Shown here: in pieces, positions 3,010 through 63,988 of the stretch
Layout of the letters: every line of letters begins with the position of its first letter
Numbering within the stretch: the first letter of the stretch is position 1
From: Pegea sp. RAD2-039
Lineage: Eukaryota; Chordata; Thaliacea; Salpida; Salpidae
NCBI GenBank assembly: GCA_034620365.1
Contig: JAQGEQ010000186.1
Location: 62,001 to 126,000, forward strand
DNA: 64,000 nucleotides
Direction of reading: 5' to 3'
Program-made: the position numbers and the translations under genes
Notes under the pieces: model-generated
The model's database searches: none
What the model saw: only the letters and a program-made list of their open reading frames with translations
What the model was told of the DNA's origin: nothing

Positions 3010-6000
3010 ATGCATACAAAAGATAAATTTGTTGCTATAAATATTACTTCTGAATCTTTCAAACCATCTTCATCTTTTAATCTTACATGTTTAAAAAGAG
3101 TAAGTTTACTTTTTATGAAATGCTTTTATTGTATAAATATCAAGTAATAAAATAAGCTTTGCTAATATATATCAAATTTGTTTATATCAAATTTTACAAG
3201 TTCATATTCTAACTGATTCATATCTATTTATAAATCTTTAGGCATGGAGAGGAAGAACAAGTCTACAAAAGAAATTTTTCATTCTTCTAATAACAGGTCT
3301 TTTCTTATTTACAATTCTTCAATATTCTTCTTCTGATCTACCTAATGGTGACGTCATTAATGTCCAAGAAAGAAATGAAAATCTTCAAGAAAACAACAAG
3401 TAGATAAAAATTATATAAAAATAGAAAATTTACAAATTTTATTATGTTTGATGATAAACTAATTATTATTAGTTAGTATTAGGGAAGCGCGCGACTATGT
3501 GTTGCCTAGCAACCACTTTTCTAGTAACCTTTATTTTCCTCAAAAAATAAACTCGTCTCGCTGATGACTTTGGAAGTTTTAAAACCAAATGATGCTGTCC
3601 GTCTGTGAGACGAAGTGGTTACCATACCTACCTACCAAGGAGGGGGTCCCAGTTCGATCCCAGGTGGACACATATTAGTGACAAGGAAAAGGCCATAAAA
3701 TTCTGGGTAAAAGGGCCCTTTGAGTCAGGTTAATGTCAACCTCTACGAGAATTTAAAACCGGAGTTGGAGCCTCGTAGGCAGTTCGTCACTCAGTGTTGT
3801 TCTGGCAGCTCCTGCGAAGCCAGCTAGGGCGCAGCTGCATCAGTCCTTCTGATCCGCTGCATAACCTTTTTGGTGTGGAGAGTGTACTTCTGCCCTGGCA
3901 CATATATGTACATGGCCGTTCGCGACCGTGGCTGGCCAAACAAGATTGATATGAAACTGGTTTTGTTGTCACTGAAATCCAATTTCTTTTGTTTTAGAGT
4001 AAAAAGTGTGAAAGAAGAATTAGATTTTAGTATAGATGAACCAAAAGAATTAGAACATCTTGATTTAGAAAAACAAACAGAACTAGAAGAACTCGAAGAA
4101 AGAGTTGAAAAAGATGTCAATATTTTGGTAATTTTGTTGCTTGATGTTCCACAAAATTATTTCATGTTTTCATCAACAGCAACAAGCAAAGAAAAGACCT
4201 CCACCCCGACTAATTGTGCGAGGAGAAGATGTAGATATTGACATCAACTCATTTAAGGTTTTGAAACTATTTCTAATAAATATGTAAATTACCATCTTCG
4301 TTTTATGCAAATCACAGAAGAAGACGGAACCTGAAACAACGACAACCACTGAGCCTGTACGAGAACCTGATCCACCACCAGGTCTAATTGTTGACAAACT
4401 TTTAAACTTTGACCTTTCGCTCATTTTGTTTACTTTTAAACTTTCTGTCGATTTTAAATGAACCAAATTATTGTTTCAATTTTGTTGACTTTTTAATAAA
4501 TTGACCTTTGAACTTTGTTGCAGCTTTTAAAGTCTTAGGTCAGGGACTTCCCCTAAACAGTAAACAACAAATGGTGGTGGACATGTTTAAACATTCTTGG
4601 AAAGCTTACAAACTTCATGCATGGTCACATGACCATCTACAACCAATCTCGCGTTCCTATGACGACTGGTTCAAAGTTGGTTTGACGATTTTGGATTCTC
4701 TAGATACAATGTACTTGATGGGATTAGAAACAGGTTTAAACTTCATCTTCTGATCTTCATCTTCTGATCTTTATCTTCATCTTCTGATCCTCATCTTCTT
4801 ATCCTCATTTTCTGATCCTCATCCTCATTTGGATGCAGAATATCTGGAAGGACGTAACTTTGTGGCTCGGGATTTGAACTTCAACAAGAACACTGACGTC
4901 AACTTATTCGAATGCACGATTCGCGTGTTGGGTTCTATGCTCAGTTCCTATCATCTCTCTGGTGATGAGATTTATCGAGAGAAAGCGGTTGGTTGCTATG
5001 ACGTGTCTTGGTTGCTAGCCACGTGACGTTTTAATTATCAGATCGACATCGGAAAGCGTTTGATGCCAGCTATGGCGAAATCAAGATCGCCAATTCCGTA
5101 TTCAGATGTTAATTTGAAAACCGGAGTCGCGCACGACCCGCGGTGGGGTCCCGATAGCACTATATCAGAAGTGACGTCAATTCAACTGGAATTTCGCGAT
5201 CTCACTTCAATGACTGATGACGTCACTTACAAAGTTAGTAGTAGCGCCCTCTAGTGAGCATCTTTGAGCGTGATGCTTTTCAGGAAGCTGTTGATCGAAT
5301 ATCGACTCATGTTGCGAATACAAGAGGTAAGAAAAATGGATTGGTCCCGATGTGGATCAACGCGAACACTGGTCTCTTTCGACCTGGATCGACGTTTACC
5401 GTCGGTGCACGAGCTGATAGCTACTATGAGTATCTGTTGAAGCAGTGGTTACAGGTAAGCAGTCCCATGTCCATCTGTCCACTGGTCACCATTGTACTTG
5501 TAGTCGGGCAAAACTGAATCAGTATTACTCGATCGATACCTACAAGCAATTGAAGCAATTCAAACCCATCTTGTTGGCACTTCAAAACCAAATCACTTTG
5601 TTTACGTTGGCGAATTACTCAGTGGAATTACACCAAGTGCTAAAATGGTCGTTTGTACTTTTTAACCCACATGTGTTTGACTTGCCCATTTCATTTCAGG
5701 ACCATTTAGTATGCTTTCTACCAGGGACACTTGCCCTAGGTGCTCATGCGTTTGCTGATTCACATCCACAGCAATCAGAGAAACATATGAAGCTTGGTAG
5801 AGAGTTAATGAGGACTTGTTATCAGATGTACAACTCAACACCAACTGGATTGAGTCCTGAGATCACATACTTCAATACAAATCCAGAAGTCAAAGATGAT
5901 CTCTACATCAAAGTAAATCTCATCTGATCTTCATCACTTGCTTCAATAGATCTTCTTAGCCGTTAGATCGTCACAATCTGTTGCGTCCTGAGACAGTTGA

Positions 6001-6339
6001 ATCACTCTTTTATATGTGGAGGATTACTAAGGAGCAGAAGTACCGAGATTGGGGTTGGAACATCGTTCAAGCCATCGAGAAATACGCGAAAGTAGCTCCT
6101 AAACCTCCAACTAACATCTTTATCATCTTGATGTTTTACAGGTGTCTTCTGGAGGATACACATCCATCAATAACGTACAAGACACTAGAAATGTTCAACC
6201 AAAAGATAAAATGGAATCATTTTTTGTGGGAGAAACTCTGAAATATTTGTTTCTTCTTTTCTCTGATGATGATCAACTGATCCCAATTGATAAATGGGTC
6301 TTTAACACGGAAGCTCATCCCTTACCTATCCACTCCTAA
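3010..6339 (+). CDS. MAN1B1: ER mannosyl-oligosaccharide 1,2-alpha-mannosidase (GH47), 642 aa
   Basis: Thirteen exons: 3010-3099, 3242-3399, 3998-4127, 4180-4257, 4318-4381, 4524-4733, 4839-4987, 5042-5233, 5284-5454, 5504-5647, 5700-5912, 5960-6091, 6142-6339. All junctions are GT-AG and phases close to 642 codons plus TAA (human about 699 aa). Exon 2 gives a type II signal anchor ([15 protein letters not shown]). Exons 3-5 are a charged, proline-rich stem. Exons 6-13 are a full GH47 barrel with family blocks [61 protein letters not shown] and the terminal [10 protein letters not shown] with its Ca-binding Thr. The enzyme trims mannose from Man9GlcNAc2 in the ER/early secretory pathway and feeds ER-associated degradation. 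Similarity to MAN1B1 exceeds that to Golgi MAN1A types. Intron 2 carries a SINE-like repeat; intron 6 is a GATCTTCATCTTCT-rich tract. Confidence 0.95.
3501..3513. promoter_or_regulatory. X-box-like inverted repeat (possible RFX site)
   Basis: GTTGCCTAGCAAC, an imperfect inverted repeat of the RFX X-box type, lies in MAN1B1 intron 2 about 90 bp before the SINE-like repeat. Position inside an intron makes a role uncertain. Confidence 0.25.
3595..3945 (+). mobile_element. tRNA-derived SINE-like repeat, copy 1
   Basis: It lies in MAN1B1 intron 2 in the sense direction. A tRNA-like head has a B-box-like GTTCGATCC near 3652-3661, followed by GGTGGACACATATTAGTGA and a body of about 280 bp (blocks GAGCCTCGTAGGCAGTT, GCGCAGCTGCATC, CTTCTGATCCGCTGCATAACC, TGGCACATAT). 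The same order of blocks recurs at 32515-32885. Two independent intronic copies make a retrotransposed SINE the best explanation. No flanking target duplication was delimited. Confidence 0.75.
4734..4838 (+). repeat. Intronic GATCTTCATCTTCT degenerate tandem tract
   Basis: MAN1B1 intron 6 is almost wholly degenerate repeats of a pyrimidine-rich unit near ATCTTCTGATCTTC. It supplies the polypyrimidine run before the acceptor. The same unit fills ENDOG intron 2. Confidence 0.8.
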
Positions 6340-6750: not shown

Positions 6751-8012
6751 ATGAGAGGACTTCCAAAACTTCTCACAACTTTTCTCCTTGGAGGAGCAAC
6801 TGCTATGGGTCTTCAACATCTCTCTGATCTTCATCATGAAGACTACACTGATCTTCAGAAGAATCGAGCGTTTGCGGCCACTCCTTTCGTATCTAATCGA
6901 CCCACCGAAATCATGAAGTTTGGTTTCCCTGGTAACACCAATTTGAAGATGAGGAACAACTATGTGTTGTCGTATGATCGAAGAAACAGAAATCCTATCT
7001 GGGTGTTTGAACATCTCAATAAACAACTGATATCATCCACCAAGAACACTGTCGACCGCAAATACTTCGACTTCGTCGGTATCTCGCTCTTTTCATGATT
7101 TATATACGAACTGATGACGTCATGTGTTTTGTAGAAGATGAATCGATCCCGCAGATGTTTCGAGCGACTAATAAAGATTTTTATAAAAGTGGATATGACC
7201 GAGGTCATCTTGCAGCAGCTGCTAATCATAAGTGAGTGAAGAAAAAGAGTTTCTACATCTTCTGATCTTCATCTTTGAATGTTCATCTTCTGATCTACAT
7301 CTTCTGATCTTCATCTTCTGATGCTGATCTTCATCTTTTGATCCTTATTTTCTGATCTTTATCTTTGGATCTTCTGATCTTCATCTTTAGATCTTTATCT
7401 TTGGATCTTCTGATCTTCATCTTTAGATCTTCATCTTTTGATCTCCATATTTTGATCTTCAGATCAGAAGGAGATTGGATGAAAGAGACCTTCCTTTTAT
7501 CCAATATCAGCCCACAAGTTCCCTCGTTAAATCAAATCACTTGGAATAATTTAGAGAAATACACGAGAAGTCTTACTCATCACTATGAGGACGTTTATGT
7601 TTGTAGCGGACCTCTTTATTTGCCTAAGTAAGTTCAATTGTGGACCACCTGGGACAAGTTGTGACAATTTGCTTCTACAGAAGGTACAACGACGGACACT
7701 TGTATGTCAAGTACCGGGTACTTGAACCCAACCACGTGGCAGTTCCTACCCACTTTTTCAAAGTTATTGTTTGTCAAAAGAAGAACTTTTTTGATGTTCA
7801 GTGTTATGTGATGCCAAATGAGAAGTTAGAAAATCCTGAACAATCAATTGACAACTTCCTAGTTCCTCTAGAATCTGTTGAAAAAGCTTCAGGTACTTCA
7901 AAGTGATCTAATTTGAATAAATTGTTGATTTGTTTTCATTGTAGGTCTCAACATCTGTTCTATCCTTGCCAAAGATAAAATTCGTTTGATGAACAAACAG
8001 AAATTAAAATAA
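6751..8012 (+). CDS. ENDOG: Mitochondrial endonuclease G, DNA/RNA non-specific nuclease, 289 aa
   Basis: Five exons: 6751-7078, 7135-7231, 7463-7627, 7681-7892, 7945-8012. All phases close to 289 aa plus TAA (human 297). The N-terminus (MRGLPKLLTTFLLGGATAMG) fits a mitochondrial presequence. The beta-beta-alpha-metal nuclease signature DRGHLAAAANH is at about residues 131-141 with the catalytic His near 134. Downstream blocks FLLSNISPQVP, WNNLEKYTRSL, VYVCSGPLYLP, NHVAVPTHFFKV and NFLVPLESVEKASG follow the ENDOG order, including the metal-ligand Asn. ENDOG acts in the intermembrane space and moves to nuclei in cell death. EXOG is an alternative, but the AAAANH and PTHFFKV blocks favour ENDOG. 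Confidence 0.95.
7232..7462 (+). repeat. Intronic GATCTTCATCTTCT tandem tract
   Basis: ENDOG intron 2 contains about twelve degenerate copies of a 14-16-bp unit near TCTGATCTTCATCT. Part of it stays open in frame with exon 3, but protein alignment places the acceptor after it, at 7462. Confidence 0.85.
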
Positions 8013-9212
8013 GATTTTTGATGTCACTATCTTTATCTGCTGCTGATTTTTAAGCCTTTTCAGCTTCTGTTTTTTAGACGTACTCAAATAAATTACTAGA
8101 AATTTACTTTTCAATTTGATGTCAAATATTTACCAATCTCCAAACTTCTGCTGATTATTTATAAGATTTTGTTAGATTTATTTTAAGTATTTTTGGATTT
8201 CACTGGAATGTTTCAGCAGCGATTCTTATAAGCTAAATGAAAAGTTTCAGAATAAATACTTTTATAAATTTCCATTAAAGATAAATTTGATATTGTCACA
8301 GAATCTATTTTAATACTTTTTCAGTAATAATAAAGTTAGAAAAGTCAAGGTAACTAGTAGCATACAGTTGTTGGTAGATATCTTATCTAAGTTTGCTCAT
8401 AAATAATCAGCAAATATAATATAGGAGAATTACTTTTAATTGTTTTAATACTTTGATTTCATTTCTAAGATTTGTTTGAAGAAAAGGTTAAAAAATTAAG
8501 TTGATATTTGATTAGAACTAATTATCACAAGTTTATTCAATTCCGGTTAAATAATAAAATTATTCAAAACTGTCTCAAAATATTAATGATTTTATATCAG
8601 CAGTCATCTCTCTGTCTGGTAACAAAAAAAGCTTTCCAGTTTGGCGTTCTTGGTTAACATTACCATGCTCTTTATCATTAACTACGCTTGGCTACTAATT
8701 ACCAATTCAACAGCTCTTATAACGAACCGAAACCAAACATTATCAGCAAATAGATAATGGAAAGGTACTAGGTATCACAATTTAAGAATAACTAAAGAAT
8801 AAGAAGAGAAAGCACCAATGAGGTACCATATTAAAAATGCTGTTACTTTACTGGATGTTATTAAAATTGTTGAGCGGTTTGGTCTTGAATAAAAAGCCTC
8901 TGAGGATGTATGAGAGATTGCAATCTTTTAAGTGTTCTATGAAGTTAAGATGGTTAAAACCATTACTAATTTTAAAACAAGTTTGGAAAAGGTGTGTCAA
9001 TTATAAGACTTATCAATTAGTAACTTCATACTAACCTGTCTGTAGTAAAAAGATTTGTTAATTTTTAAATAAAACTTTCATATATTTCTTTTTGTTGTTC
9101 AACATTTGAATCTAACAAGTTTAAAAATTTACAATTTCAAATCTTTCATTAAATTTGAGGTTTATTGAAACAATCACCAAAAAATTTGATGGAACAAATA
9201 ATCATTTGAAGA
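8013..9212. other. Convergent intergenic region
   Basis: ENDOG (+) and NDUFB9 (-) end toward each other here. No exon is supported; an open frame at 8837-9034 has no recognisable content. A repeat-related patch lies at 8700-8800. Confidence 0.5.
8700..8800 (+). repeat. Dispersed repeat, copy 1 (related to 56240-56345)
   Basis: The stretch around AATTCAACAGCTCTTATA, then ACCGAAACCAAACATTAT and AGGTACTAGGTATCACAAT, matches in order the sequence at about 56240-56345, where it starts an insertion into the right arm of the FUT8 inverted duplication. Its class is unknown. Confidence 0.5.
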
Positions 9213-9821
9213 TTAACCCCAATGATCCTTCTTATCAGGGAACCATTCCATAAGTTTAGGTTTCTCTAAAGGTCTCGTCACCTTTCTCCACCAATATGGT
9301 GGATATCCATCTTTCTCATTAGCAGCTGGAAGATCATCAGAAATTTTCTTCCCAGCTTCAATATTCATCTTATCCCATTCTTGCAAACTCTTCATTTCAT
9401 TATCCCAATTATCTTTCCTAATTTGCTGCCATTTTTCTCGATTAGCAAAATAGTCAGGGAAATGAGCTTTTTCATCAGCTGGCCACTTATCCATTTCCTT
9501 CTCATCAACCTGATAGGTAATATGACGATTATAAGTGAAACCATCTGGATGATTATGGATTGTGATTGGTTCTTCATGTTGATTCAACCAGAATTCCTCT
9601 TCACCTAGCTTCACGATCTGAGAAGCAACAATTGGATCTTTTTCATTTTTATATTTATCAAATCGAGCTCTTAAGAGAGTTCGTTCATAACAGTAAGTTG
9701 CTCTGCCATGAGAAGCACAATGAGACTCGAGATGACGCTGCGCGCGTTTATATAAACTCAGAACCTTCTGCTTATGAGAGAGGAACTTGTAGAGAGAGTT
9801 GGCCGGTACTACATTTGCCAT
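9213..9821 (-). CDS. NDUFB9: NADH dehydrogenase 1 beta subcomplex subunit 9 (B22, LYR family), 202 aa
   Basis: This single uninterrupted exon of 202 codons (human 179 aa) opens with ATG at 9821. The LYR-type motif (LSLYKRAQRHLE) is at about residues 20-32 with the downstream Phe/Arg features, and the LYK variant matches vertebrate NDUFB9. Later blocks RARFDKYKNEKDP, EEEFWLNQH, FPDYFANREKW, PPYWWRKVTRP match the family in order. It is an accessory complex I subunit in the membrane arm that binds mitochondrial acyl carrier protein. It is intronless, unlike its neighbours. The frame is intact, so this is a gene or a still-functional retrocopy. The C-terminal KDHWG tail is longer than usual. Confidence 0.95.
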   Translation of the reverse strand: MANVVPANSLYKFLSHKQKVLSLYKRAQRHLESHCASHGRATYCYERTLLRARFDKYKNEKDPIVASQIVKLGEEEFWLNQHEEPITIHNHPDGFTYNRHITYQVDEKEMDKWPADEKAHFPDYFANREKWQQIRKDNWDNEMKSLQEWDKMNIEAGKKISDDLPAANEKDGYPPYWWRKVTRPLEKPKLMEWFPDKKDHWG

Positions 9822-12233
9822 TACCTATTGAATAGATTCTAACTGAATTGATTAATGTCAAAAATTTTGAACAAAATTCAAAATAAGTTTTGGATTTAAT
9901 CAAAAAGAAAAAAAATAATTTAAGATTAGAGCAGAACTTCAAAATATTCAACAATTACAAAAAAATGATTTTTTAAAATTGAATTAAGTTTGATAAAATA
10001 ATTTAAACTTAAAAAAAGCTTTTAATAAATGATGTTTAAAAAATTAGAAATAAATGTTGAGAAATTTGATCAATTTTTAAATAACAATCTGTTAATAAAA
10101 CATATAAATTAAAAATATAAAATTAAAAATAACTAAGAAATTATATCAATAAAATAATGTAAAAAATAAAAAATTTCAATTATAAATAATAAAATTTAAA
10201 CTTTTACTTATAATTTATCATTTGAATTTATTTTACATGCATTTAGAAATCCAAAAATTCATTATCAGTAAAAATAAATATAGAAATGAAATTTATATAT
10301 TCATTAGAAAAACAATTTCTTCAAAAAAATTATTGGCTAAAAGACTATATTTAAAAAATAAAAATAAATGTTAAAAAATCGTGTTGATATAATTTTAACT
10401 ACTTATATTTCTTACGTTTTTATTTAGTTTGAATAATTTTAGTATATTCTTTATATTAGAAAGAAATTGGTATATAAATATGATAAAAGATTATATTAAT
10501 AATTATCATAATTTAGAAATTAACATATTTCTAATAAATGATTTAATAAATAACTCTTGAAGTAAAAAGGTCAAACAAAATGTCCTTTTAACAATTTGTA
10601 CTGGTGATAGTTGATGTAATGATGATTTTGAAATTTAATAATAATCTTTATCAGAAAATATTATTAAAATATCATATTATTAAAAATAATAGATTATTAA
10701 AAAATATATAAAAAAACTGCAACTAGTCTTTTGTCTTTTTTAAAAAATAAATACTCACATTTGTTCTTATAAATTTAAAAGCTTACGATTTACTAAGATC
10801 TATCTTTTAGATGGTAATCAAAGTAATTTAACTTTTCTAAGTATGTTTTGCAGCCGACAATAAACTTATAAATGAATGGAAAAGGAAAAGAAGATATGAA
10901 TATAAGCTCAATAAATGGAATATCAAAAACTTTTAAAATCGTACAAACGGGGTTTGATTCAACAAAAACTGTGGATAACTAAATCCTTTACAGATCTCTC
11001 AATAATACTAAATAGATTGAATGTATCTTTTGTATTATCTGTATTATTTAAGATTGAAGTATGTTTTTCATTATCTTTCTGCAGTCATTTTTTTTGCTGT
11101 AAGAGCTGTATAACTTTTAATCTTTAGCATTGCGTTGAATAAAATAAATGATTAGATAAATATTTTGAATAACAATATGTAAGCAACTACACTAGAAAGT
11201 GTTAGCGTTAAGGTTTAAAAGTTTTTTGAGAAACGAAAATATTGCTAATAGCATCAAAACATAGTCTTAAGCAAGAATTGGTAGAACATTTTATTAAACT
11301 AAGAAGCAAACTAAACGGTAAAATTAAAAGTAACTTCAAATTATGTTCATAAAACTTCATGTTATCTTGATTTTTCGAAACTTTAACAATCGAAACCTTT
11401 ATTTTGGACTATACAATTTTCTAAAAGATCAGTTTATATGACAGAATACTTTTTAGATTCCAAAAAGGATTTGCTGATAGCAGCTCAGAGTATATTAAAA
11501 AACGAAATAAATTAAGTTTAATAAGATTTGACTTTAAGATTACCTTTCGTGTATTAAGTGGATGTGATAACCGCTAGACAACGAAGACGGACGAAAAGAA
11601 GCAAGATTATTTAAAACTTGTAAGGGGTGAGGAACCTTCATTGTAAGGAACCTTCTTTTAAGGGATTTTGGTGATCATTCATAATAATCAGTTTCTCGAT
11701 AATCTTCATCAACAACTAAATACTTGTAACTAAGACCTTAATATCAATCCAGTAGAAAAACTTAAATTTCTTTCCTGAGCAAACTTTATTTCAAATTATA
11801 TAAAACTTTTGATAATTTTTATTTTGGCTCCTGTATATTTTTATCTTTTATATATATTTAAAACAATTAATTTTTTATATCTACATTCATTTTTCAATAG
11901 TTTAATAATTAGACTTGTAAACTTAGTATTGTAATCATACTCTTTAAGAGAGGTCTGTTTAATTGTACATCAGCTATGATACCAACAGTGAACAATGATG
12001 AGCTCAGAAAGTACTCACAATGCATCATTACTAAACTTAAAAACACATGTACGTATGCGGCAAAATAATTTATTATTATCTCGCTGAAATATAATCTTTA
12101 ATATCACAGATATAACTAATATTGTTTAGATTGTAAAAGACAATTCTGATTTCTGTTTAATTTTGATCAAGTGTTTTTAACAGGTTTTATTATTTAAGTT
12201 TTCTGAATAATTATCTACTAAAGACAATTGTAC

Positions 12234-17619: not shown

Positions 17620-18799
17620 TCAGATCTTCAAAACGATCTTATGATTAGTGGGAAATATGGATTGATTGAGCTCTTCAGGTGGAAGGACCTTCATCAGATG
17701 AGGTCTGAACAACAACAATGTGTCACGTGACTCGAAAATCACTGAAGCGTATCGCCACCTGAGTTTCGCCTCATCTGCTTTCTGGATGACGTCACTGATG
17801 ATGTGAAGAACGCGATCCTGACGATAAGTAGAAAGAAGCAACGACTGAGGTGAAAGATAAAGAAGAGATCCACTCCTTAGATGTAGAAGCTCACTATCAG
17901 GTGGATCCAGCTGTAAATCACTTTGTGACGTCACCCATCGACCACAAACCGCTAAAGAAGTGATGACGTCATGCTTAGTCGGTTTTGATTTGCTGACGTC
18001 AGAGTTAGGAAGAACTGTAAAAGAGATAATGACGTCAGCACTTTGAGATGACGTCACGATCACCTCCACAATCAATGATGACGTCAGCACCGAGACCCCC
18101 GGTTTCTTCAATCACAAAGTTACGAAGATAGCGAGGATTTGAAGAGATGCGAGCGACACCTAGTGTCATCATTGTACGTAACATCTCTTCCTCCTGTTCA
18201 TCAGCAACACTCGCAAACGTTCTGACGTCATAACAACGCGCTAGTTGTAGGCATGTCACTCCGAACGGCTGCAATCTGATGTTGAAGTTATCGCGGTTGT
18301 GACGTCATACCGACCGTTGCAGCGTTGCAGACGAGAAGAGAGTCCCCGGGGCGGATGTGAGCGAGATGATGAAGAGCAAAGAGCGCGCGAAACCCATCAT
18401 TAAGACACGCTGACGTCATTGTCCATGATAACGAAGCAGGCTTGGTAGCTTTAAGAAGCAAGTTCCAATGACGTCATTAACTTCCGATGACGTCATCGAC
18501 TCACTCACGAAGACTTCTGAGACGTCACAAGTTTGATCTTCATCATACTGGAAGTTGTGATTGAGAGGGAGTAAAGCTGCTACGTCATCACCAACTTGAA
18601 TTCGCGTCACTAAGGCGCCTATCTTCGTCACGGTTCCAGTGACGTCACAAACGCGAAACTTCGAGTCCAATTTCACTTCCGGTTGCAATCTGCTTTGTAG
18701 AGCGCGGCAGTTGATGACGTCATCGACGCTGAATGCCATCACGCGAATCGTGACTAAATACGATTTTTCTAGTGACGTCATCATCACTTCCATCAACAT
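17620..18799 (-). CDS. CRYZL1: Quinone oxidoreductase-like protein 1 (MDR family), about 338 aa
   Basis: Four exons on the minus strand: 18799-18509, 18440-18315, 18268-18064, 18014-17620. Phases close to 338 aa (human 349). The N-terminal GroES-like half carries VTGTVTKIGALVTRIQVGDD and AALLPLN. The Rossmann half has DGFRALFALHHLAHIRPGD, PFGVTCLQLARCYDV and ETGGLGADVIIDCG. The C-terminal exon has KHDVITSLAVCGRWVT and LQLDPPDS, both diagnostic of CRYZL1. It is a zinc-lacking medium-chain reductase; the substrate is unknown. The acceptor of exon 2 was chosen by frame and could shift a few residues, and a further 5' exon is possible because the N-terminus is shorter than human. TGACGTCA palindromes are embedded in the coding sequence in more than one frame (CDVTG, DDVIN, MTS). 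Confidence 0.85.
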
Positions 18800-19017
18800 T
18801 AACTAATTTCAAAAAATCTTAAGCTGCAAAAAAAACATCCGTAACGATGACGTAATAAAAAGTGATGACGTCATAAGAAATGACCTAAGCCACAATAAAA
18901 ACATCTTTTGTGCTAAAGTGATAAAAAAGGTAAAAAGAATGACGTCATAGAAACTGATGATGATATATAAAGATATACTGATGACGTAATGACATATTAA
19001 TAACATAACATAGAAAC

Positions 19018-19160
19018 TGATGACGTAATAAAAACTGATTACGTAATAAAAAATGATTACGTAATAAAAAATGATGACGTAATAAAAACTGATTACGTAA
19101 TAAAAACTGATTACGTAATAAAAACTGATGACGTAATAAAAACTGATGACGTAATAAAAA
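19018..19160. repeat. 18-bp minisatellite, TGATGACGTAATAAAAAC units
   Basis: About eight near-identical 18-bp units alternate TGATGACGTAATAAAAAC with TGATTACGTAATAAAAAC. Related scattered copies run from about 18845 to 19310. The core TTACGTAA/TGACGTAA is a one- or two-base relative of TGACGTCA. Confidence 0.9.
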
Positions 19161-19399
19161 ATATCTTAAGCAAAAATAGAAATATCTTTTGTGCTATAGT
19201 GATAAAAAAAGTAATAAAATGACGTCATAGAAACTGATGACGTCCTTGAAAAATATACTGATTAATAGAAAGATATTCTGATGACGTAACAGAAACTGAT
19301 GACGTAACGACGTCGATTTTTAGGTGAAAAATAATAATTTCAAAACTCTTCATTTGAATCAAATTTCGTTTCAAACAGCTCCAAGAAGCCAGTTACATG

Positions 19400-19612
19400 T
19401 AAACGATGACGTCATAAAGATAACATGACGTCATCAGCAGCTACTTGGACATCAGATGTAAATGATGACGTCATCAGTAGCTACTTGGACATCAGATGTA
19501 AATGATGACGTCATCAGTAGATACTTGGACATCAGATGTAAATGATGACGTCATCTGCAGCTACTTGGTCATCAAATGTAAACGATGACGTCATCAGTAG
19601 CTACTTGGACAT
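19400..19612. repeat. 39-bp minisatellite containing GATGACGTCATC
   Basis: About five tandem units of 39 bp each contain GATGACGTCATCAG, then TAGCTACTTGGACATCAGAT. Each unit carries one perfect TGACGTCA palindrome, so the array alone contributes five copies. Confidence 0.9.
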
Positions 19613-19684
19613 GATCAATTTGGACTTTTCCGTTTTTTGATCAAAATGAATCTAACAAAAGTATTGACAATGACGTCATTAACA

Positions 19685-21550
19685 TCAGATAGTGATGACG
19701 TCACTCACCGATACATCAGCAGCGCGCGGTTGAACGGTGACAGAAGAAAAGCATCGAAGAAAATCAGGAGTTATGTGTTTGGTGGCTACGTCATCAGCGA
19801 TGACGTCATCAGCAACTTGCTTTTCATCAGTGATAAAAATTACTCCAAAGATGTTGATGATGCAACCGAAGATGAAGAAGAAGATGGAAGTCGCGTTTTG
19901 TGAAAAGAACTCCTAAGTGAAGAGCTGATGACGTCATTGAACCTCAAAATAGCGGTGATTACGTCATAGAAAAAAGCGCCCGCGAGAATTGCACTGATGG
20001 TGAACATGACAAAGTTGACTGGAACTACAACTGAAATTTTGTGTGACGTCATCGCTTCGTTCAAGTACTTCACCTATGACGTCATACACTGATGACGTCA
20101 TCAATAATTTAAACTTGTTTCACCTGGAAAAGAATCGTAAGGGCGAGAACGACGATCATAACGTAGAAGATTGGTGACGTCATCTGTGAGTTACCTGCAA
20201 AACGCGTTGATGACGTCACATACACAGCGAGTCGATGACGTCACCTCTTACTGTTAACGTCATCATTCCTGAAACTGCTTTGGCACTGATGACAGTAAAT
20301 GAACCCGCGATTGCCACTAACGTCATCAGTGACGTCAGACCGCCAACATCGCGCTTTCTCATCAACATCAACACCACGAATATTATAAGCTGCGATGACG
20401 TCACACAGGTGATGACGTCAGTGAGTTGTTAATGTAATCACCTGAACAACGACGTAGATAATAAATCGCCAATCAACTAAACGCTCGATGAGGTGTCGCG
20501 AGTCTAGTATGACGTCATCACTTGATGCAAATTGTAGAACAAAGAAGCTACCAACAATTGCAAATGAAGTACCAACCATATCACGAAGTCGTATCTTCTC
20601 ACCATTCATCACCATGGCAACCACACCATTTGCAATCACTGCAAAGCTACCTACACGTGATCAAATCAGTTGTAGACGAGAAGTGTATGACGTCACTAAC
20701 CGAGTGGCGCGACTACAGAAGCAGGCGCGAAGCCATAAGCGACAAAGTTGCCAATTTCACCAACCATCATTAAGAAGATTCCAAACCACCAAGTTGGGAA
20801 ATGTAGATGACTAAAAGATGACTTGGATGCAGCTCTTTGTGTGTCTTCAGATGCAGCTCCTTGTATGTCTTCAGATGCAGCTCCTAGTGTGTCTTCAGAT
20901 GTAGCTCCTTGTGTGTCTTCAGATGTAGCTCTTTGTATGCCTTCAGATGCAGCTCCTTGTATGTCTTCAGATGCAGCTCCTTGTGTGTTTTCAGATGTAG
21001 CTCTTTGTGTGTCTTCAGATGTAACTCCTTGTATGTCTTCAGACGCAGCTGTTTGTAAATCATTGAATTTCTTATCAGCTGCATCTTTTTGACGATGAGC
21101 AAGTTTCTGTGAAATATTTTTTCAAAATAAATGAAAAATATAAATTTAATTATTATTGTATAATTTGAATATTATCAAAATGCTTCAAAATTAAACTTAG
21201 TTTCTTAATTTTATATCAAATAGAATAATAATAAAAGTTATTAACCTTAAAAATATGTCCTGAAAAAATATGGTATTTACCTGACAATTTAGAGCTAATG
21301 CAATAACACCATTCCCACATATAGATAAAATAACACCAAGTTTATATTCACTTGAAAATGATGATGTTGTTGAATTTCCTATAAAAATATTAACATAAAA
21401 ACAATCAAAAAAACTTAGATACAATCATCTAATATAAAATTTATTACTAATTTTAAATTTATTTAAAAATTTAGAAGAATCTTGCTACTAACCTAAATTA
21501 TTAGCTAAAGTTGAATTATCCAAGAATGGTGATGAAAAGTTTGAATTCAT
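19685..21550 (-). CDS. NIPA-like magnesium transporter (NIPAL2/3 type)
   Basis: Eight exons on the minus strand: 21550-21493, 21378-21281, 21106-20701, 20650-20442, 20389-20245, 20194-20124, 20073-19963, 19912-19685. Every junction keeps phase. Family blocks in order: GVILSICGNGVIALALNCQ (TM1), WWFGIFLMMVGEIGNFVAYG then FAPASVVAPLG, VMNGEKIRLRDMVG, GSFTVISAKAVSGM, PIFYVMIVVLALTILFQ, KISVVVPVNFVMFTISAILAG, and a last helix with FIFGCIINIFGVIFI. That is about nine membrane helices, as in NIPA proteins, which carry Mg2+. VVPVNFVMFTISAI favours NIPAL2/3 over NIPA1/2. The loop between TM1 and TM2 holds an expanded octapeptide array. The C-terminal tail after FIT is uncertain: a good donor (GTGAGTGACG) near 19700 could lead to another exon. 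Confidence 0.88.
20823..21045 (-). repeat. 24-bp coding tandem repeat in NIPAL loop (SEDTQGAA units)
   Basis: About nine to ten copies of a 24-bp unit sit in exon 3 and encode an octapeptide near SEDIQGAA/SEDTQRAT. They fall between the first two membrane helices. The frame is preserved throughout, and the opposite strand is open too (SSDAAPCM units), which is a shadow. Confidence 0.9.
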
Positions 21551-38217: not shown

Positions 38218-40663
38218 ACAAGTAAACCTTTGAGACTCGAGGAGTTTTACAAAAAATGCTAAAATTCAGCAGGGAGCTCTAAATTATTCAACGTACGTAT
38301 AAGTGGAATCTTATAAATCTTCAAAATTTAACTCCAAATCATCAATAACATCTTTTGTTGATAAAAATACAAATATGTATTTTATTGATCTTTAAAAAGC
38401 TGAGTTTTTCAATCAAAGCTTTCAAAAGTTCTTCTTAAGCGACATAGACTGTTAAAAGTTTAAAAGATTTAAGAAGAATTTGTAACTGTCAGCCATGCGT
38501 TAAATAAATAATTTATGACAAAGATTTATCACTCAATAAAACGTCATTTGGTTGGAACAGATACAAAGACTAAGAAAAAGAAGTTTATTCAGTTTTTAAG
38601 TACTTCTTCATCGGTTTATTGCTCCTGATTAGTTTGAGACTTAGGCGCTGATTTAAAATATTTGAAAAAATATTTTTAACTTTAATTTCAACATTTTTAA
38701 ACTTTTAAAGAATACATTTGAAAAATCGTTTGATTTGATAATTTTTTAAATCTTTTAAATGACGTTAATTAATTGTAATTTTAAACAATTTTTTTGTTAA
38801 GGGATTTTGTATCAATTACCGTATAATAATACTAATTGATATTCAAATAGAACATTATTAAATGGAAAGTAGATTCTAGTAATTGACATATACTTTTCAT
38901 AAAAGCTTTTGTGGAAAATGAAAATTAAATTTATTCAAATTGAAAAAATTTTTAAATCAATTTATAAAACTTGCATGCTAATAAGCTAATCTATTTTCAA
39001 TTAAGTTTTTGTTAAGTATTTTTTGGCAATGCAGAATATTTGGTTCATTTTCAAATAATAAAAAAGAGTATTTACTATTTTCATTTCAATGAAATTCTTA
39101 CCTGTTGGTCTAATTCGTGTTTAGACACGCAACTAGAAAAATTGAAATGATTACATAACAAACGATAGTGTTTGATATAACCTTAAAGTAATAACTAAAT
39201 AACAACTTTAGTCAAAATTAATAATGAAATAAACACAAAAGAAAAGAAGTTAATTGAACTTCCTGAATATTTACCTCAATGTTCACAAAGTAGTATTTTA
39301 AAACTACCCGATCTCTTAATCTATAATACTAAAATCAATTGCAGTTTCAAGAATAATAATATATTTTGATTGTCCAAAACACTAGGCTTAGTGAGACAAA
39401 GTAAAAGTTTAATTAAACAGAAAATGAAACTAATTATTTTTTAACCAATTTACTTTTAATAGAAGAGAAAAAAAACTTGTGATAATGGTGTAATCAAATA
39501 ATCTTTAATTTAGTTTTACCTCAAAAAACATGAAATATTTATTTTTAAACTTAGTTTTTTAGAAACTGTAACTTTTCAAACTTAAGACTCAAACGTTATG
39601 AATAAAATATTTAATAAATTCGACTTGAGTGATGCTTTTATTTTATATTCATTCATTCATCTTGATTTATTCTTGATGTGTTGAAATGTTAAATCTAACT
39701 TTAGCTAAACCAGACAAAGGTTTAGCAATTTGTCAACACCCGAAGCTTTGAACAAAGAAAACGAACCACTTAAAATTTAACAATAAAGGATACAAAGAAA
39801 AACTTAAATAAATAAATTCTTATACTTTATTAATACAATCTTTGAACTCAGTCAGTTTAAAAATTTAAAAAACTACAAAATAAATAAAAGCAAACTCTCG
39901 TACAACAATAACCTTATCGAAGAGTTTGTTGGTTTTCCAATATTTCAAATTTGAAATTAATTCCAATTCATCCTAACTCTTCTAAAAAGCATTTTTTCAT
40001 TCTAAATTTACAAATTCTTTTCAAAAACTTAATATTAATTTTTTTAATAGCGTAATCAGTTTATAAAGATTTATTAACTGCTTCTTAATCTCTTCTTATT
40101 AAAAACAATAATTACAAATAATGTACTAACAATATAATTAATAACATAAACTTTAGCAGTTTTATACTAAACTTTCAAATTTTTTTATTTAATTTATCAA
40201 ATAAAAGCAAATTGAACTTTCAAAATTTTATTAAAAAAGTTTTGAGAAATTTGGTTTGTAGAAATGAAAATGGTCAGAAAGAAGAATAAACAATAATTTG
40301 TTTGTGAACAAGATTATATTTTCATTTCTCTAAATTTGTATAATAGGAATAAGTTCTAGCTTATAATAAAAATTAGAAATAAATAAGTAACAAACTATAA
40401 ATAAGTCAAAATAAATTATAAATAGTATTTTGCCAAATTAAAAGTAACTAACATATTAAAAATGATATATCTTTTTTAAAGTAAAGAAACAAGAAGAAAG
40501 TAGAAATTCAATTCTTAAATTTTAAATATCCTTTCCATAAAATATTAATCTGGAATATATAATAAACAACAAAATATAATCGTTTACAGTGAAGTTTTAA
40601 TGAAATAGTAATACTTGAAAACTAAGACTGTCCATATTTTTCTCTAAAATTATGAATCAATCC
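38218..40663. other. FUT8 copy A 3' flank, no gene
   Basis: Non-coding AT-rich DNA, almost collinear (inverted) with 54259-57803. The conservation of this junk between arms shows recent duplication or gene conversion. Confidence 0.7.
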
Positions 40664-43600: not shown

Positions 43601-44222
43601 GATATAAATAGATATAAATAGATATAAATAGATATAAATAGATATAAATAGATATAAATAGATATAAATAGATATAAATAGATATAAATAGATATAAATA
43701 GATATAAATAGATATAAATAGATATAAATAGATATAAATAGATATAAATAGATATAAATAGATATAAATAGATATAAATAGATATAAATAGATATAAATA
43801 GATATAAATAGATATAAATAGATATAAATGATATAAATAGATATAAATAGATATAAATAGATATAAATAGATATAAATAGATATAAATAGATATAAATAG
43901 ATATAAATAGATATAAATAGATATAAATAGATATAAATAGATATAAATAGATATAAATAGATATAAATAGATATAAATAGATATAAATAGATATAAATAG
44001 ATATAAATGGATATAAATTGATATAAATAGATATAAATAAATATAAATATATATAAATAGATATAAATAAACTAAAATATATTACTTTGGTTGTACATAT
44101 CTTGCAGATAAACTGTAGAAAAGGAAAACCCCAAAAAATATCAATAAAAAAATTATTTTTTTTTTGTACAAACATAGTTCTGATTCTATAAAAACTTTTT
44201 TCAAATTTTTTAAAAATTTCAT
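40664..44222 (-). CDS. FUT8: Alpha-(1,6)-fucosyltransferase, FUT8-like, copy A, 536 aa
   Basis: Eight exons on the minus strand: 44222-44086, 43544-43353, 43216-43104, 42966-42721, 42600-42333, 41781-41584, 41176-41029, 40972-40664. Phases close to 536 aa (human 575). Exon 1 is a type II Golgi anchor (KKKIIFLLIFFGVFLFYSL). Exon 4 has CGIGCVVHHLAKCFLIALG; exon 5 has ERFHGNPAAWWSGQV; exons 5/6 give PIVGIHVRRTDK, the GDP-fucose-binding motif; VYLATDEP follows; the last exon is the SH3-like end (RGYWTGANRRTKERGIYP). It adds core fucose to the innermost GlcNAc of N-glycans. Intron 1 has expanded to include about 470 bp of a 10-bp satellite. Copy B differs by few residues in exons 2-8 but strongly in exon 1. 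Confidence 0.93.
41838..42025 (-). repeat. AGAGGTGCTCT-family dispersed repeat in FUT8-A intron 5
   Basis: The minus strand reads GTTCACTGTTATATGTTTTG, then GCGAGAGGTGCTCTTTTCAG, then GGTACCCTCCTTCGCATTTA and a TAATAAATA tail. It is one of at least seven copies in this window and is shared with copy B, so it predates the duplication. Confidence 0.85.
43595..44070. repeat. 10-bp satellite GATATAAATA, about 47 copies
   Basis: Nearly perfect head-to-tail GATATAAATA units fill FUT8-A intron 1, with one 9-bp slip near 43830 and a few variants at both ends. FUT8-B has only a remnant (TATATGTATTCATATCTATA). The array keeps frames open artificially and is not a gene. Confidence 0.97.
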
Positions 44223-57560: not shown

Positions 57561-57747
57561 TAAACTTTTAACAGTCTGTGTCGCTTAAGAAGAACTTTTG
57601 AAAGCTTTGATCGAAAAACTCAGCTTTTTAGAGATCAATAAAATACATATTTGTATTTTTATCAACAAAAGATGTTATTGATGATTTGGAGTTAAATTTT
57701 GAAGATTTATAAGATTCCACTTATACATACGTTGAATAATTTAGAGC

Positions 57748-59990: not shown

Positions 59991-60105
59991 CTGCTGTTGA
60001 GAAGATGAATCAATGTTTCAAATAAAATTGAGTAAAATAGGAAAGTTTATTAAACGAGAAGGTGGCAAGTGATAAAGAAGAACGAGTGGTAGAAGCATGA
60101 CGTCA

Positions 60106-61416
60106 TCAACACGCGCGACAAATCCAATCGCGATTTTCTTCGATGGCGACAATAGTAGCAGCGCAGTACATATGATACCAACGACGACATCGATCACATT
60201 GGACCCATTCCGCCATTGAACCCGAAGCTTCTTCAGGAATATCAAAGTCGCCACACTTACTACAGAAGCTTTCCTTCGCAGCTACAAACATCGACGTCAT
60301 CAAGTTGTTGCTACGCAACCAGCTCATCGCGACTTACCTCCTGATACTAGCAACCGCTTCGCCATTAACCGCCTTACATTGATGACGTCATCACTACAAC
60401 AGCGTACTTCTTCTGGAGTTGACGGAAAGCTTTCTAGAAGTTGTTCAGCCATTTGAAGCAGGAACACCTCGCTGTCGTCGTCATGGCAATCTTCGTAGTT
60501 ATGTGGCAACGATTTAGCTTGCCATTGAATAGTTGACCATCGTGGTTTCACCATGGTTGCCTTGCGCGGTTTCAGGCACATTCTATCGATTGATGACGTC
60601 ATAGAGGTTTGTTGACGTCACACATGGTTGGAGACACTTACTTGAGATTAGCAGCAAACTCATGAGCGAGTTGAGAACTGAAAGATCTGTCTAAAGGATT
60701 GATGATGTAGATGCTCTGTTGGATCGCGTTGATGTACTAAAAAATCTTCCATCAAATCGATTTCAAAACAAAGTAAATCAATCTTACGATTAGTTGCCAG
60801 TGGTTACCGACTTTATCCAATGAAATCATTCCATCATACACATTGATCTTGACCTGTAAGTGGTTTGTGATGAAGATGTAGTCAAAGACACACAAAGATA
60901 CTCACTCTTTCAATCATTTGACGTTGTAAACTACACATCTTGATAGCTTGAATGAAATCAGTATCCATAAAAAGCAACTTGCGGCAATTATCGTTGCTGA
61001 TGATTGTGGAGTTGATGTAGAACCTCATCAGCTGCATCAATCACATCCAGGATCTGATCTTTAGATGTATCTTCATCACTTCTTACCTCATAACTCAGCC
61101 TGTGTTGAGGCTTCAACATCTTGATCTCTTTGACTCCGAGGTACAAGTAAGCCCGCTTCTTACGTGGCAGTTTCAGCTTGGACAGGACCACTTCATCACA
61201 GTCAGATTTGTCCCATAAGGCGTCCACCTAGGACATTATGGTCAAGAAGATGTTTCAAGTTGGTCCACAACCACTCACCATCTCGTCTTCGTTCATTTGT
61301 TCTCTGGAACTATCTTCAGGGGACATGGGGCGTTGAGGGACATCAGAGAGAGGTTGTTCTGGGTTCAAGGACTGGATTGACGGGGAGTTATGACCACTGG
61401 ATAGGTCATCTTTCAT
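60106..61416 (-). CDS. Ulp1/C48 peptidase-like protein with C-terminal PHD finger, 328 aa
   Basis: Seven minus-strand exons: 61416-61279, 61227-61087, 61031-60906, 60853-60788, 60736-60642, 60582-60338, 60281-60106. All phases agree, to 328 aa plus TGA. The N-terminus is acidic/Ser-rich. The middle resembles the Ulp1 fold: FYINSTIISNDNC, INVYDGMISLDKVGNHWQLI with the catalytic-type His-Trp, SIYIINPLD, and DDDSEVFLLQMAEQLLE, where the usual catalytic Cys-Gly reads Ser-Glu. The end is a C4HC3 PHD finger: FCSKCGDFD, EWVQCDRCRRWYHMYC, WICRAC. PHD fingers read histone tails, so a chromatin or SUMO-related adaptor without protease activity is an inference. Upstream is ARID4 on the same strand. Confidence 0.75.
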
Positions 61417-61885
61417 GTAACAAATTTGATTGGTTATTCAAATTGTCATCGAAAACACGTGTGTGAAAATACTCGATTGTGATTGGTGGCTTGTGATAAA
61501 AGAGGAAATTTAGAATAAAGCCTGATCAGTGGCTGCCATGACAACGAGAGTTGGAGTTTAAACGGCTGATTTATTGATATAAGAGACCTAATGAGTAGGT
61601 TATTGGGCACAATACAAAAATTTACTCGGATATAAAAGTAGTAAGTGATCATCACTTGAACATAACAGAATTTGGAGATCATTTAAAGGACATTCAACTG
61701 ATGATGCATACATCTCACACAGAAATCATCATGACGCAAACAAACATAGAATAGATGAAAAGATGAAACATTCAATCATTCAAAGAAATTGATAAAAAAA
61801 AATGTAGATATAAGCTTGATGGTGAAGATGTTCACATGATAAAATGAAGAGAATGGTAAAGTGAAGGAGGAAGTAGGGGTGATTG
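61417..61885. other. Short spacer between ARID4 and the Ulp1-PHD gene
   Basis: This 470-bp stretch contains the ARID4 3' UTR and the putative promoter of the Ulp1-PHD gene. Near 61534-61550 is GGCTGCCATGACAAC, close to the X-box seen before ENDOG. No exon is supported. Confidence 0.45.
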
Positions 61886-63988
61886 CTAAATGGTCATCTC
61901 AACTAGGTCCCGTTTAGGAGGAGATATGGACCTCTTGTCAGTGGTCGAGGAAGTGATTTGTTCTGCCGAAAAAAAGACAGCTCATCAGAATTGTGGCAGT
62001 GAAATGGGACAAGTGGACAGGCGGTTGGGGCGTAAGAGAGGACGGGAGAAGAAAAGATGAAAGGATGATTAGCGTCATGCATTGATGAAGATGAGAAGGA
62101 AGATACAAACCTCCATCGAGAAGACGTTTTCGTCGCTTCTTCTTCCGATCGAGACGCTGAACTTCGAGACGACATTGTTGCCATACTTTACGTAGCAACC
62201 GGGCCTCTTCTTCTAACGCCGCAATCCTAGTGTCCCTGTCCATGCGGTCCAGGGCTACAAAATCAGTCAGTTAACATGGACAAGTGGGACAGGGGACACT
62301 CACCTTCGTTGTCATAGTGATAAGGTAATTCGGGGACAACTTTTTTCGGGTCTTTTCGCTTCGCGCGTCTTCGGCGCCTCGGGGCAGCGACTTCTTTGCC
62401 CTTATCTTCCCCACTTTCACTCGCCCCGACGTCCTTCTGTAATTTAATGACGTCACAACCGCGATCGCGTCACAATCACTCACCTCTTCAACTTGTTGTT
62501 CATCCTCTTCTACGTCATCACATACTTCCGGTTTAGTGACGTCATCGTCTTTGGGGGATAATGACGTCGATTCAGTACTGGAATCGCTGCAAACGGGAAC
62601 AGTTAGTGGATGCGACGAGAAGGATAAAGACTCACCTGCATTCGGTAGGTATAGGGATCTCTTCTTCATCTATTTTCACTTCCGGTTCCACTTCCGGTTC
62701 TATTTCCGGTTCCACTTCCGGTGACGTCGATGATTCTGGATCCGCTGAAGGGCGCTCTTCGTCTGACAGCTTTTCTTCTTGAACTTGCTCACTTGGTGGC
62801 GCTGTAACCGCTTGTGGGAACGCGATGTCATCGAGAGGTTCCAACTTCACCCAACCCACTTCCGGTATCGCTTCATCGACTTCGACGTCACCTTTGACGT
62901 CATCATCTGCAGCTTCTTCTTCAGCTTTTTCTGCAACTTTCGCTTTGGCATCAGTGGACCGCGAAATCGCGTTCTTCTTTCGACGACCCGGTTTCAACGG
63001 GAACCTCGTCGAGTCTTGCAAATAGGGAGGAGGATTCGAGGACCTTCCGGATGTCCTACGCCCCGATTCCAGCTTCCCACCTCTATCATCAACATCACTT
63101 GACATTTTCTTCTTTGTAACGCGCGGTTTCGCGATTGGACCTATCTCTTCGGAAGCAGCGCGTTCTACAACCGCTTCAACTTCCTTCGTGATCCCGCTAC
63201 TGCATTCGATCACAGAAGAGCTACTCCCGCGTCGCTGTCGACCGCCTTTCTTCACTTGGGGCGTTTCGAGCTTCTTCACTTGAAGAGGCTCTTTTTTCAC
63301 TTGGGGCACTTCCTTCTTAATCTGGGGCACCTCCCCCTTCTTCAATTGGGGATTTTCTTTTTTAATCTGGGACACTTCATTCTTTGGTTCCTCTTTAACA
63401 ACAATCCGGTCTAGTTCCAGCGGTGATGACGCGTTTTTGGGGCGCCGGGCAGGGTTGTTTTGTTTGTCATCTTTAGTGTAACCAACAATACGGTCAGATT
63501 CGACCCACTCATCAAACCGAATGTTCCATCCAGGGTAATGAACGTAGTACTTCATCTCCCCGTTCGCCCCCTCTTCAGCGCGAACTACTTTAGCGCGATA
63601 TGTCTCGGAGGTTTCTACTTTGTAACGAATCAACAAAATATCATTCAATTTATATCGCGTCACTTTCTTTGTTTGATTTGATCTTCGTCGCTTCGCGCTG
63701 CTTTTTGTCGCTTCTTCATCTTGAGGAGGTTCGGTGACTCGTCCACGACGACTCGCTCTTCTTCCAGCTCCACTTAGCTCTTCTTCGCGCGATTTTTTAT
63801 CATCGCGACGAGGTAGACTCCGAAAACTGTTCGAATATTCTTCGAATCGAAGCAGATATTTGATGTAAGCTTGTTTAGCGTGATGGTTTCCTGCAGCGTT
63901 ATGTTTGGGAATTTTTAATCCAGCATACACCTCTCTCCAGCCAACAATCCCACCGATTCCATACCAACCACCTCGCGCTTGCACCAAA
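61886..63988 (-). CDS. ARID4: ARID4-type chromatin protein, C-terminal part (partial, runs off right edge)
   Basis: Five exons in the window: 63988-62636, 62586-62484, 62436-62304, 62254-62111, 61962-61886, phases closing on TAG. The first continues the ARID domain (VQARGGWYGIGGIVGWREV, AYIKYLLRFEEY). A chromo-barrel follows at about 63655-63470 (YKLNDILLIRYKVETSETYR, YYVHYPGWNIRFDEWV). Then comes a Lys-rich part with repeats of the QIKKE/QVKKE type, and an acidic part with EPEVEPEVEPEV. Exon 4 has the ARID4 C-terminal coiled motif (TRIAALEEEARLLRKVW, EVQRLDRKKKRRKR). ARID4A/B are RB- and Sin3-HDAC-associated repressors. ARID4A and B cannot be separated; one ancestral gene is likely. The N-terminal Tudor/PWWP part lies beyond 64000. 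Confidence 0.92.

Follow-up and report, generated by a model that had tools for sequence, protein, structure and literature searches.

Why should a single eight-letter word crowd into two adjacent genes of an animal? The question arises from a 64,000-nucleotide stretch of the salp Pegea sp. RAD2-039 (assembly GCA_034620365.1, contig JAQGEQ010000186.1, positions 62,001 to 126,000; hereafter the window), in which an earlier note, made from the letters alone, pointed to about 39 copies of the palindrome TGACGTCA within 2.9 kb. Exactly 39 are counted there (starts 17787-20688), where an order-1 Markov model built on the composition of the cluster itself predicts 0.18, and the whole window holds 51. 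This octamer is identical to the binding site of CREB, the cAMP-response element (CRE), and CRE is used below for the exact word. A DNA-level force acts on the exact octamer in gene-body islands and shapes coding sequence. As to its cause, we give a probability of roughly 45% to the reading that TGACGTCA is kept in CpG-rich islands by the binding of a CREB/ATF-class bZIP protein together with weak selection against loss.

Abundance across the assembly

The genome searched is one assembly of 105,744,746 bp in 387 contigs (labelled C1, C2 and so on), in which the window is C8:62001-126000. A whole-assembly count finds 27,792 copies of TGACGTCA, against 969 of the reversed word and about 770 expected by scaling an order-1 Markov figure. 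The earlier note had allowed that a genome-wide count near expectation would undo its idea; the count lies far above it. About 0.26 Mb beyond the window was examined in detail (fetched loci are labelled L004, L014 and so on). A fixed-place sample consists of 16 stretches of 10 kb (300001-310000) among contigs C1-C20, of which four were too short, and thus excludes contigs below 310 kb. Dinucleotide frequencies predict 1.16 copies in the sample, which contains 52. At Markov orders 1, 3 and 4 the expectations are 1.2, 2.3 and 11.0 for these 52 copies, and 0.5, 3.9 and 16.4 for the 51 in the window; chance is rejected as the cause by the excess at all three orders in both. The order-6 expectation for the window is 47, a comparison that is uninformative because TGACGTCA itself makes the 7-mers.

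The rank of the word depends on how words are counted. With one copy taken per distinct flank, TGACGTCA comes first among 8-mers with at least 12 copies (84 vs 1.4; fixed-place sample and window). If repeat copies are included, it is outranked in the fixed-place sample by words from repeat families; at order 4 it falls behind the palindrome TCACGTGA in that sample and behind GAATATTC and TTACGTAA in the window, and still higher ratios belong to very rare GC-rich palindromes with one or two copies each. The excess over a Markov background that the earlier note anticipated is there at orders 1, 3 and 4; first place in every ranking is not.

CpG-rich islands in gene bodies

The copies cluster in CpG-rich patches, the longest about 3 kb, that lie within genes whose introns measure about 50 bp. 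Of the 100 copies first listed on C1, 52 lie no more than 600 bp from another copy, where a Poisson process would give 7.4, and the window has none at all at 7.2-17.7 kb and 20.7-60.0 kb. The chromosome-wide lattice imagined earlier is therefore to be modified: the copies form patchy islands, not an even grid. With TGACGTCA masked, the observed/expected ratio of CpG is 0.92-2.32 per 300-bp bin in the window island, against 0.00-0.63 in most flanking bins. The patches are CpG-rich beyond their GC content: among 500-bp bins matched at GC 0.40-0.50, those with TGACGTCA have 23.5 other CpGs (15 bins) and those without have 9.6 (18 bins). CRE density per predicted gene tracks GC content at third codon positions (rho 0.71, 31 genes), which, with the CpG bins, supports the tie to GC-richer gene segments that had been proposed. 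Other words are also raised in islands (the window, L004, L014, L016, L017, L042 and L043), among them GGTTGCTA/TAGCAACC, which we take to be RFX half-site like, and CGCGCGAA. Repeats of CTTCCGG, presumably ETS-like, are raised at 62.4-63.2 kb.

Genes were predicted by a gene finder that uses codon scores and GT-AG introns and was trained partly on CRE-bearing genes; its splice sites are approximate, and all models are automatic except that of the NIPA-like gene, which was checked by hand. The finder recovers the NIPA-like, CRYZL1, MAN1B1-like, KCNT1-like (L017) and lipin-like (L042) genes, whose introns are about 50 bp long and whose identities come from Pfam matches and solved homologues. 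Across the 16 fixed-place loci, predicted introns hold 14 CREs in 4.24 kb (3.3/kb), predicted exons 19 in 26.6 kb (0.7/kb) and the remaining 129 kb another 19 (0.15/kb). These densities include four repeat-like predictions (L004:5474, L004:6656, L015:5352 and L017:3141), which the codon and per-gene counts leave out. Two of the 14 intron copies and one of the 19 exon copies come from L004:6656. The window cluster, too, has copies in exons, introns and between its two genes, so the word is not confined to promoters, as the earlier note had said.

The density in introns raises the prospect of an RNA-level signal, a splicing or mRNA element UGACGUCA, and one NIPA-like intron starts as G followed by TGACGTCA, so that the word overlaps the splice donor (copies beside splice sites had been noticed before). 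Such a signal is very improbable. A perfect palindrome better fits a dimeric reader of DNA, the intergenic stretch of the cluster has copies, 19 of the 52 in the fixed-place sample fall outside predicted genes (the models being incomplete), and many predicted genes with introns of about 50 bp carry no copy.

Effects on coding sequence

Within exons the word occurs in two codon phases, xTG-ACG-TCA and xxT-GAC-GTC-Axx; the third is unused because it reads as a TGA stop, which trims the several phases of the earlier note to two. Codon choice was examined in 13 predicted genes with at least two CREs each (5,700 codons), of which five lie in the window, five in two stretches picked for density and three in fixed-place loci. 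Of 31 D-V pairs preceded by T and followed by A, 29 are written as TGACGTCA, where the codon usage of these genes predicts 4.0; D-V in other contexts is GACGTC in 4 of 24. T-S after TG is likewise ACGTCA in 24 of 28 cases (2.1 expected), and elsewhere in 7 of 39. A single open frame of 685 codons writes five of its six D-V pairs as TGACGTCA. Among 18 genes with fewer than two CREs, the in-context counts are 2 of 9 for D-V and 1 of 5 for T-S.

The contrast persists in the fixed-place loci alone, both for D-V (9/16 in context vs 1/21 elsewhere, p 7e-4) and for T-S (9/15 vs 1/41, p 6e-6), and also after removal of their richest locus, L016 (D-V 4/11 vs 1/20, p 0.04; T-S 6/10 vs 1/37, p 1e-4). Codon usage or the hexamer GACGTC alone is rejected by this dependence on context. 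The earlier suggestion of a force strong enough to shape coding sequence is thus upheld. Amino-acid choice may also be affected, because the pairs are commoner in CRE genes (D-V 55 and T-S 67 per 5,700 codons, vs 30 and 39 per 6,828), though these genes were chosen for having copies.

Substitution, insertion and local duplication

Exonic CREs of four proteins were aligned to solved homologues, and seven of nine show no gap at or beside the word. The three CREs of the MAN1B1-like gene (4894, 5172 and 5218, at DVN, VTS and DDVT codons) are all ungapped, with DVN and VTS conserved and DDVT standing against GDKK. The KCNT1-like CRE (ILTSR against ILSSR) and the Atg8-like exon CRE (VDDVIP against VDNVLP) are ungapped as well, as are two of the four in CRYZL1; the other two have a gap one to three residues away in a low-identity alignment. 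The seven copies at ungapped homologous positions therefore arose by substitution.

These alignments bear on whether a short mobile unit, a transposon footprint or an intron-borne unit inserts the word, as its very high copy number and its highest density in short introns might suggest. Insertion is already disfavoured and has very little probability: all five exonic copies of the MAN1B1-like, KCNT1-like and Atg8-like genes sit without a gap, as do the two in CRYZL1; NIPA-like introns with one or two copies stay at 50-52 bp; and the spacers of close pairs vary from pair to pair in most of those listed. Copies thus do not appear as insertions relative to homologues, in the manner of an insertion element or introner. 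The earlier note had offered either a process that writes the word or a bZIP lattice. A unit that multiplies by insertion drops out, a DNA-level force on the exact octamer stays, and the writing process and the lattice cannot be separated from sequence alone.

Local tandem duplication, which the earlier note named as the other way its idea could fail, is rejected as the source of the cluster, since only 5 of the 39 copies lie in the period-40 array listed in Table 1. Within that array the CRE columns are unchanged (0 of 32 letters) and other columns differ at 7 of 128 (four units compared). A DNA search of the genome with the cluster as query matched only the cluster itself at full length. An ATF6-like locus on two contigs (L039, C21:1488155; L040, C37:190728) is 99.25% identical, and both copies carry three CREs, too few to inform an allelic test. 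The assembly keeps some haplotype or duplicate copies, as this locus on C21 and C37 illustrates, and comparisons between alleles could make use of them.

Repeats rich in the word occur elsewhere. Positions 1-1912 of L020 (C57:766500-769740) consist of arrays of 24 and 21 bp full of TGACGTCA, whose minus strand can be read by eye as an acidic, DDVI-rich protein; many of their units have TGACATCA, as if CpG decay were at work. Tandem repeats of the TCTTCATCTTCTGATC type at 7252-7465 and 4743-4823, seemingly longer introns by eye, have relatives in L020.

Sharpness of the word and DNA methylation

Places within one mismatch of TGACGTCA number 64,917 genome-wide, which leaves 37,125 one-mismatch places, 1.3-1.5 times a background of 27,699 (reversed word) or about 25,000 (scaled order-1). 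Much of this excess falls in two classes: the CpG-deamination product TGATGTCA (11,070 in both orientations, about 2.3 times the scaled expectation of about 4,900) and TGACGTAA (5,160, against about 2,600 by scaled order-1). A simple steady-state model in which copies arise and decay neutrally predicts a slight surplus of one-mismatch descendants over intact copies, by 8/7. The observed excess of 9,000-12,000 beside 27,792 intact copies is too small for that state, and under this model TGACGTCA is therefore either actively kept or very recent.

Fifteen islands in fetched loci (18.3 kb, with two array stretches of the window masked) contain 120 TGACGTCA against 0.57 expected, and 25 one-mismatch words of all kinds against 10.5. 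Within them TGATGTCA is not raised (1 vs 1.6 expected), which suggests that germline methylation is absent there; TGACGTAA is raised (9 vs 0.6, a fair share of them in the window cluster), as is TGACGTTA (5 vs 0.6). One-off variants at the outer positions number 3 against 3.5 expected in the fixed-place sample (160 kb) and 7 against 2.2 in the islands.

A palindromic octamer with a central CpG invites comparison with the bacterial palindrome HIP1, and a methyltransferase or methyl-dependent repair enzyme that recognises the word might create it as a by-product of maintenance. There are 11 matches to PF00145 genome-wide, seven of them in open frames of 832-873 aa, and the PF00145 protein that was fetched is a DNMT1, matching the solved enzyme at E 1.1e-166. 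DNMT1 acts on CpG in general, and no enzyme specific to TGACGTCA is seen among the 11 matches, of which the one examined is DNMT1-like. Islands lack CpG decay at the word, and the outer-position variants of the fixed-place sample are not piled up as they are in HIP1. A methylation link is accordingly quite improbable.

The single-frame C5 DNA-methylase matches lie at C57:819728-821071, C57:825001-826344, C249:1740707-1742050, three places on C32 and C52:9209-10639; the two on C57 are inverted and 5 kb apart. L041 encodes a DNMT1-like protein of 863 aa in one open frame with no CRE. With seven matches in single open frames and L041 DNMT1-like in one frame, genes of the DNMT1 type have apparently expanded in number; retroposition or carriage by a mobile element may be the route.

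A candidate reader and the forces that might act on the word

The base before TGACGTCA is A in 0.53 and G in 0.33 of the 52 fixed-place copies (86% A or G; T 5%), and CREB/ATF sites prefer such R...Y flanks around the same core. A symmetric dimer is suggested by the perfect palindromy and the R...Y flanks. Across the assembly there are 12 PF00170 exons (two duplicate a single locus), whose translations we take by eye to be of Jun, CREB1, CREB3, Fos/ATF3, XBP1, C/EBP, NFIL3, BACH and ATF6 types; CREB1 was the type checked against solved CREB, and its encoded leucine zipper finds there its best match (E 2.2e-18). A second iterated palindrome, TCACGTGA, is of E-box type and occurs 4,614 times genome-wide against 237. 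On the first stretch of C1, 13 of its 41 copies lie within 600 bp of a CRE (3.0 expected), and three overlap one with starts 5 bp apart (C1:23084/23089, C1:555832/555837 and C1:1212792/1212797). The overlap can read TGACGTCACGTGA or TCACGTGACGTCA. Taken together, the flanks, the second palindrome and an ordinary CREB1 suggest a bZIP dimer as the putative reader. A preferred spacing of pairs is only a hint: 14 of 56 pairs among those listed, mostly on C1 at 2.0-2.9 Mb, are 20-21 bp apart, and 466 of 5,280 pairs genome-wide are exactly 20 bp apart, period-20 arrays included.

Under the preferred reading, a dimeric CREB/ATF-class bZIP protein would bind TGACGTCA in patchy, CpG-rich and probably unmethylated islands, and the loss of a site would be weakly selected against, so that the word is kept. 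Reading the 45- to 210-fold enrichment as exp(4Nes) would put 4Nes at about 4-5. We infer that selection, and not biased repair or conversion, is the force, that the likely reader of the word is a CREB/ATF dimer and that the islands are intragenic regulatory or methylation-protected domains. Site selection by such a dimer would be the simplest cause, and drive by conversion or repair is its main rival.

Under that rival, molecular drive, the TGACGTCA allele would be favoured by mismatch repair or gene conversion where islands are active in recombination, and the organism would not benefit. Drive accounts for the exactness of the word (the one-mismatch counts), for copies in exons, introns and between genes alike, for the disregard of function, and for the island-wide rise in GC and CpG that conversion bias would give, and does so equally well as site selection. 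Because ordinary hotspot motifs are lost by conversion, drive would need the reversed direction, favouring the word. Precedents come from fission yeast, where, according to the accessible part of one account, the bZIP pair Atf1-Pcr1 binds the CRE-like site M26, which opens chromatin and determines recombination; breaks fall to either side of the site, and none is visible at the site itself (PMC9775316). The same part states that not all fission-yeast CREs are hotspots and that Atf1-Pcr1 does not bind the native CRE in ade6 (PMC9775316). Repair-based drive has also been proposed for HIP1, in the portion of that literature available (PMC4390886). On balance, molecular drive is possible, if rather unlikely.

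A variant of this idea makes the word accumulate by itself and is less probable again. In open islands where recombination is active, a bZIP dimer would shield its own site from meiotic breaks and keep the neighbourhood open; at a heterozygous site the breaks would fall on the non-CRE allele, which would be mended with the CRE allele as template. New CREs would each be driven to fixation once density passed a threshold, and isolated CREs would be lost. If true, self-accumulation would account for the patchiness of the islands, the exactness of the word, its indifference to codon phase and the higher GC and CpG; a transcription-factor site would then be rewriting proteins as a genomic parasite, and the animal would gain nothing.

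Several observations weigh against maintenance by a CREB/ATF dimer. Up to 39 sites in 2.9 kb, with about 90% of coding chances taken, far exceed the apparent need of ordinary regulation, and many predicted genes have no CRE at all. CREB/ATF proteins bind imperfect sites too, and the imperfect site TGACGTAA stands at only about twice expectation genome-wide; the genome-wide level of TGATGTCA means that some copies are not kept. A test of maintenance in seven tandem arrays is mixed. Four have unchanged CRE columns (0/232 letters vs 31/654 in other columns); the other three have decayed (CRE columns 61/928 vs 154/1,605), with CpG decay in many of their units, and here again some copies are not kept. 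The bZIP complement looks ordinary, with its 12 exons and its ordinary CREB1. The fetched loci have no peak of pair spacing near 20 bp (17 and 19 bp five each, 20 bp three).

Genes and other features of the window

Both genes under the cluster, named by the earlier note as CRYZL1-like and NIPAL, are real and lie on the minus strand (Table 1). The five introns of the NIPA-like gene (50, 52, 50, 50 and 50 bp) carry eight CREs; its five downstream exons (620 bp) carry four, its first exon (406 bp) none, and further CREs lie in a predicted tail below 19829. The CRYZL1-like protein has no Pfam match; its automatic model has four exons with 11 CREs and three introns with four, one splice junction being doubtful. 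The two predicted genes at 60098..62902 encode Ulp1-protease/PHD and Tudor-knot/MSL3-chromo domains. A large inverted repeat (38220-43594 / 51341-57803) has arms about 96-98% identical in four aligned blocks, and a 10-bp satellite (ATAGATATAA, 50 copies, 43568-44069) lies at the inner edge of one arm.

Table 1. Features of the window (positions within the 64,000-nucleotide stretch)
Feature	Position	Strand	Basis
Single CRE	3349..3356		count
ER alpha-mannosidase I (MAN1B1)-like gene	4805..6333	+	homologue comparison
Single CRE	7115..7122		count
CRYZL1-like gene	17662..18802	-	best PDB match quinone oxidoreductase-like protein 1, E 2.5e-23
CRE island, 39 exact TGACGTCA in 2.9 kb	17787..20695		count
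Tandem array, period 18, carries TGACGTAA and TTACGTAA, no TGACGTCA	19010..19160		
Tandem array, period 40, 4.7 copies, holds 5 of the 39 CREs	19425..19612		
NIPA-like Mg transporter	19829..21106	-	Pfam Mg_trans_NIPA, E 2.5e-63; six hand-checked exons
NIPA-like exons	21106-20701, 20650-20442, 20389-20245, 20194-20124, 20073-19963, 19912-19829	-	
Seven CREs (60098, 60383, 60594, 60613, 62448, 62537, 62895) in two predicted minus-strand genes	60098..62902		count

Comparison with known systems

Among the titles and opening lines of abstracts listed from the literature searched, there is no earlier report of such a word in an animal; most subscription journals lay outside its coverage, so that earlier knowledge is conceivable. 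In ctenophores a GC-rich motif is bound by zinc-finger proteins, and TGACGTCA goes unmentioned in the available part of that account (PMC12221973). Highly iterated palindromes are known from bacteria, and their cause is still argued. An animal case with about 28,000 copies of a transcription-factor octamer would be evidence that proteins across a genome can be shaped by a short binding site that overrides codon choice, and would make site selection and conversion drive directly testable against each other.

The nearest parallel is HIP1 (GCGATCGC), which with other highly iterated palindromes of cyanobacteria is, like TGACGTCA, a dispersed and hugely over-represented palindromic octamer whose cause is debated between selection and biased repair, as far as the accessible portion of its description goes (PMC4390886). 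As in HIP1, the octamer lies far above Markov expectation in coding and non-coding DNA. One-off variants of HIP1 pile up at the first and last positions, according to the same portion (PMC4390886); those of TGACGTCA are not raised there in the fixed-place sample, and the classes raised genome-wide are TGATGTCA and TGACGTAA. Unlike HIP1, moreover, TGACGTCA belongs to an animal genome, is identical to a transcription-factor site, and is confined to patches; no word-specific methyltransferase was recognised among the 11 PF00145 matches, of which one was examined. The HIP1 authors caution, in the part available, that gross over-representation does not imply selection (PMC4390886), a caution that would by analogy apply to TGACGTCA too.

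Among eukaryotic systems, the cAMP-response element of CREB/ATF bZIP dimers shares the octamer and the R...Y flanks, and CREB1 is present. Usual CREs are few and near promoters; here there are tens of sites per gene, in exons and introns. Vertebrate CpG islands resemble the patches in being CpG- and GC-rich and in also holding E-box, ETS-like and RFX-like words; the patches differ in their location within gene bodies and in the dominance of a single octamer. The M26/CRE-like hotspots of fission yeast offer a CRE-like word that is bound by bZIP proteins and acts inside coding sequence (PMC9775316, in the part accessible). Unlike TGACGTCA, the M26 hotspot was created by single mutations, not all CREs are active, and that part of the source describes no genome-wide saturation by M26 or CRE (PMC9775316).

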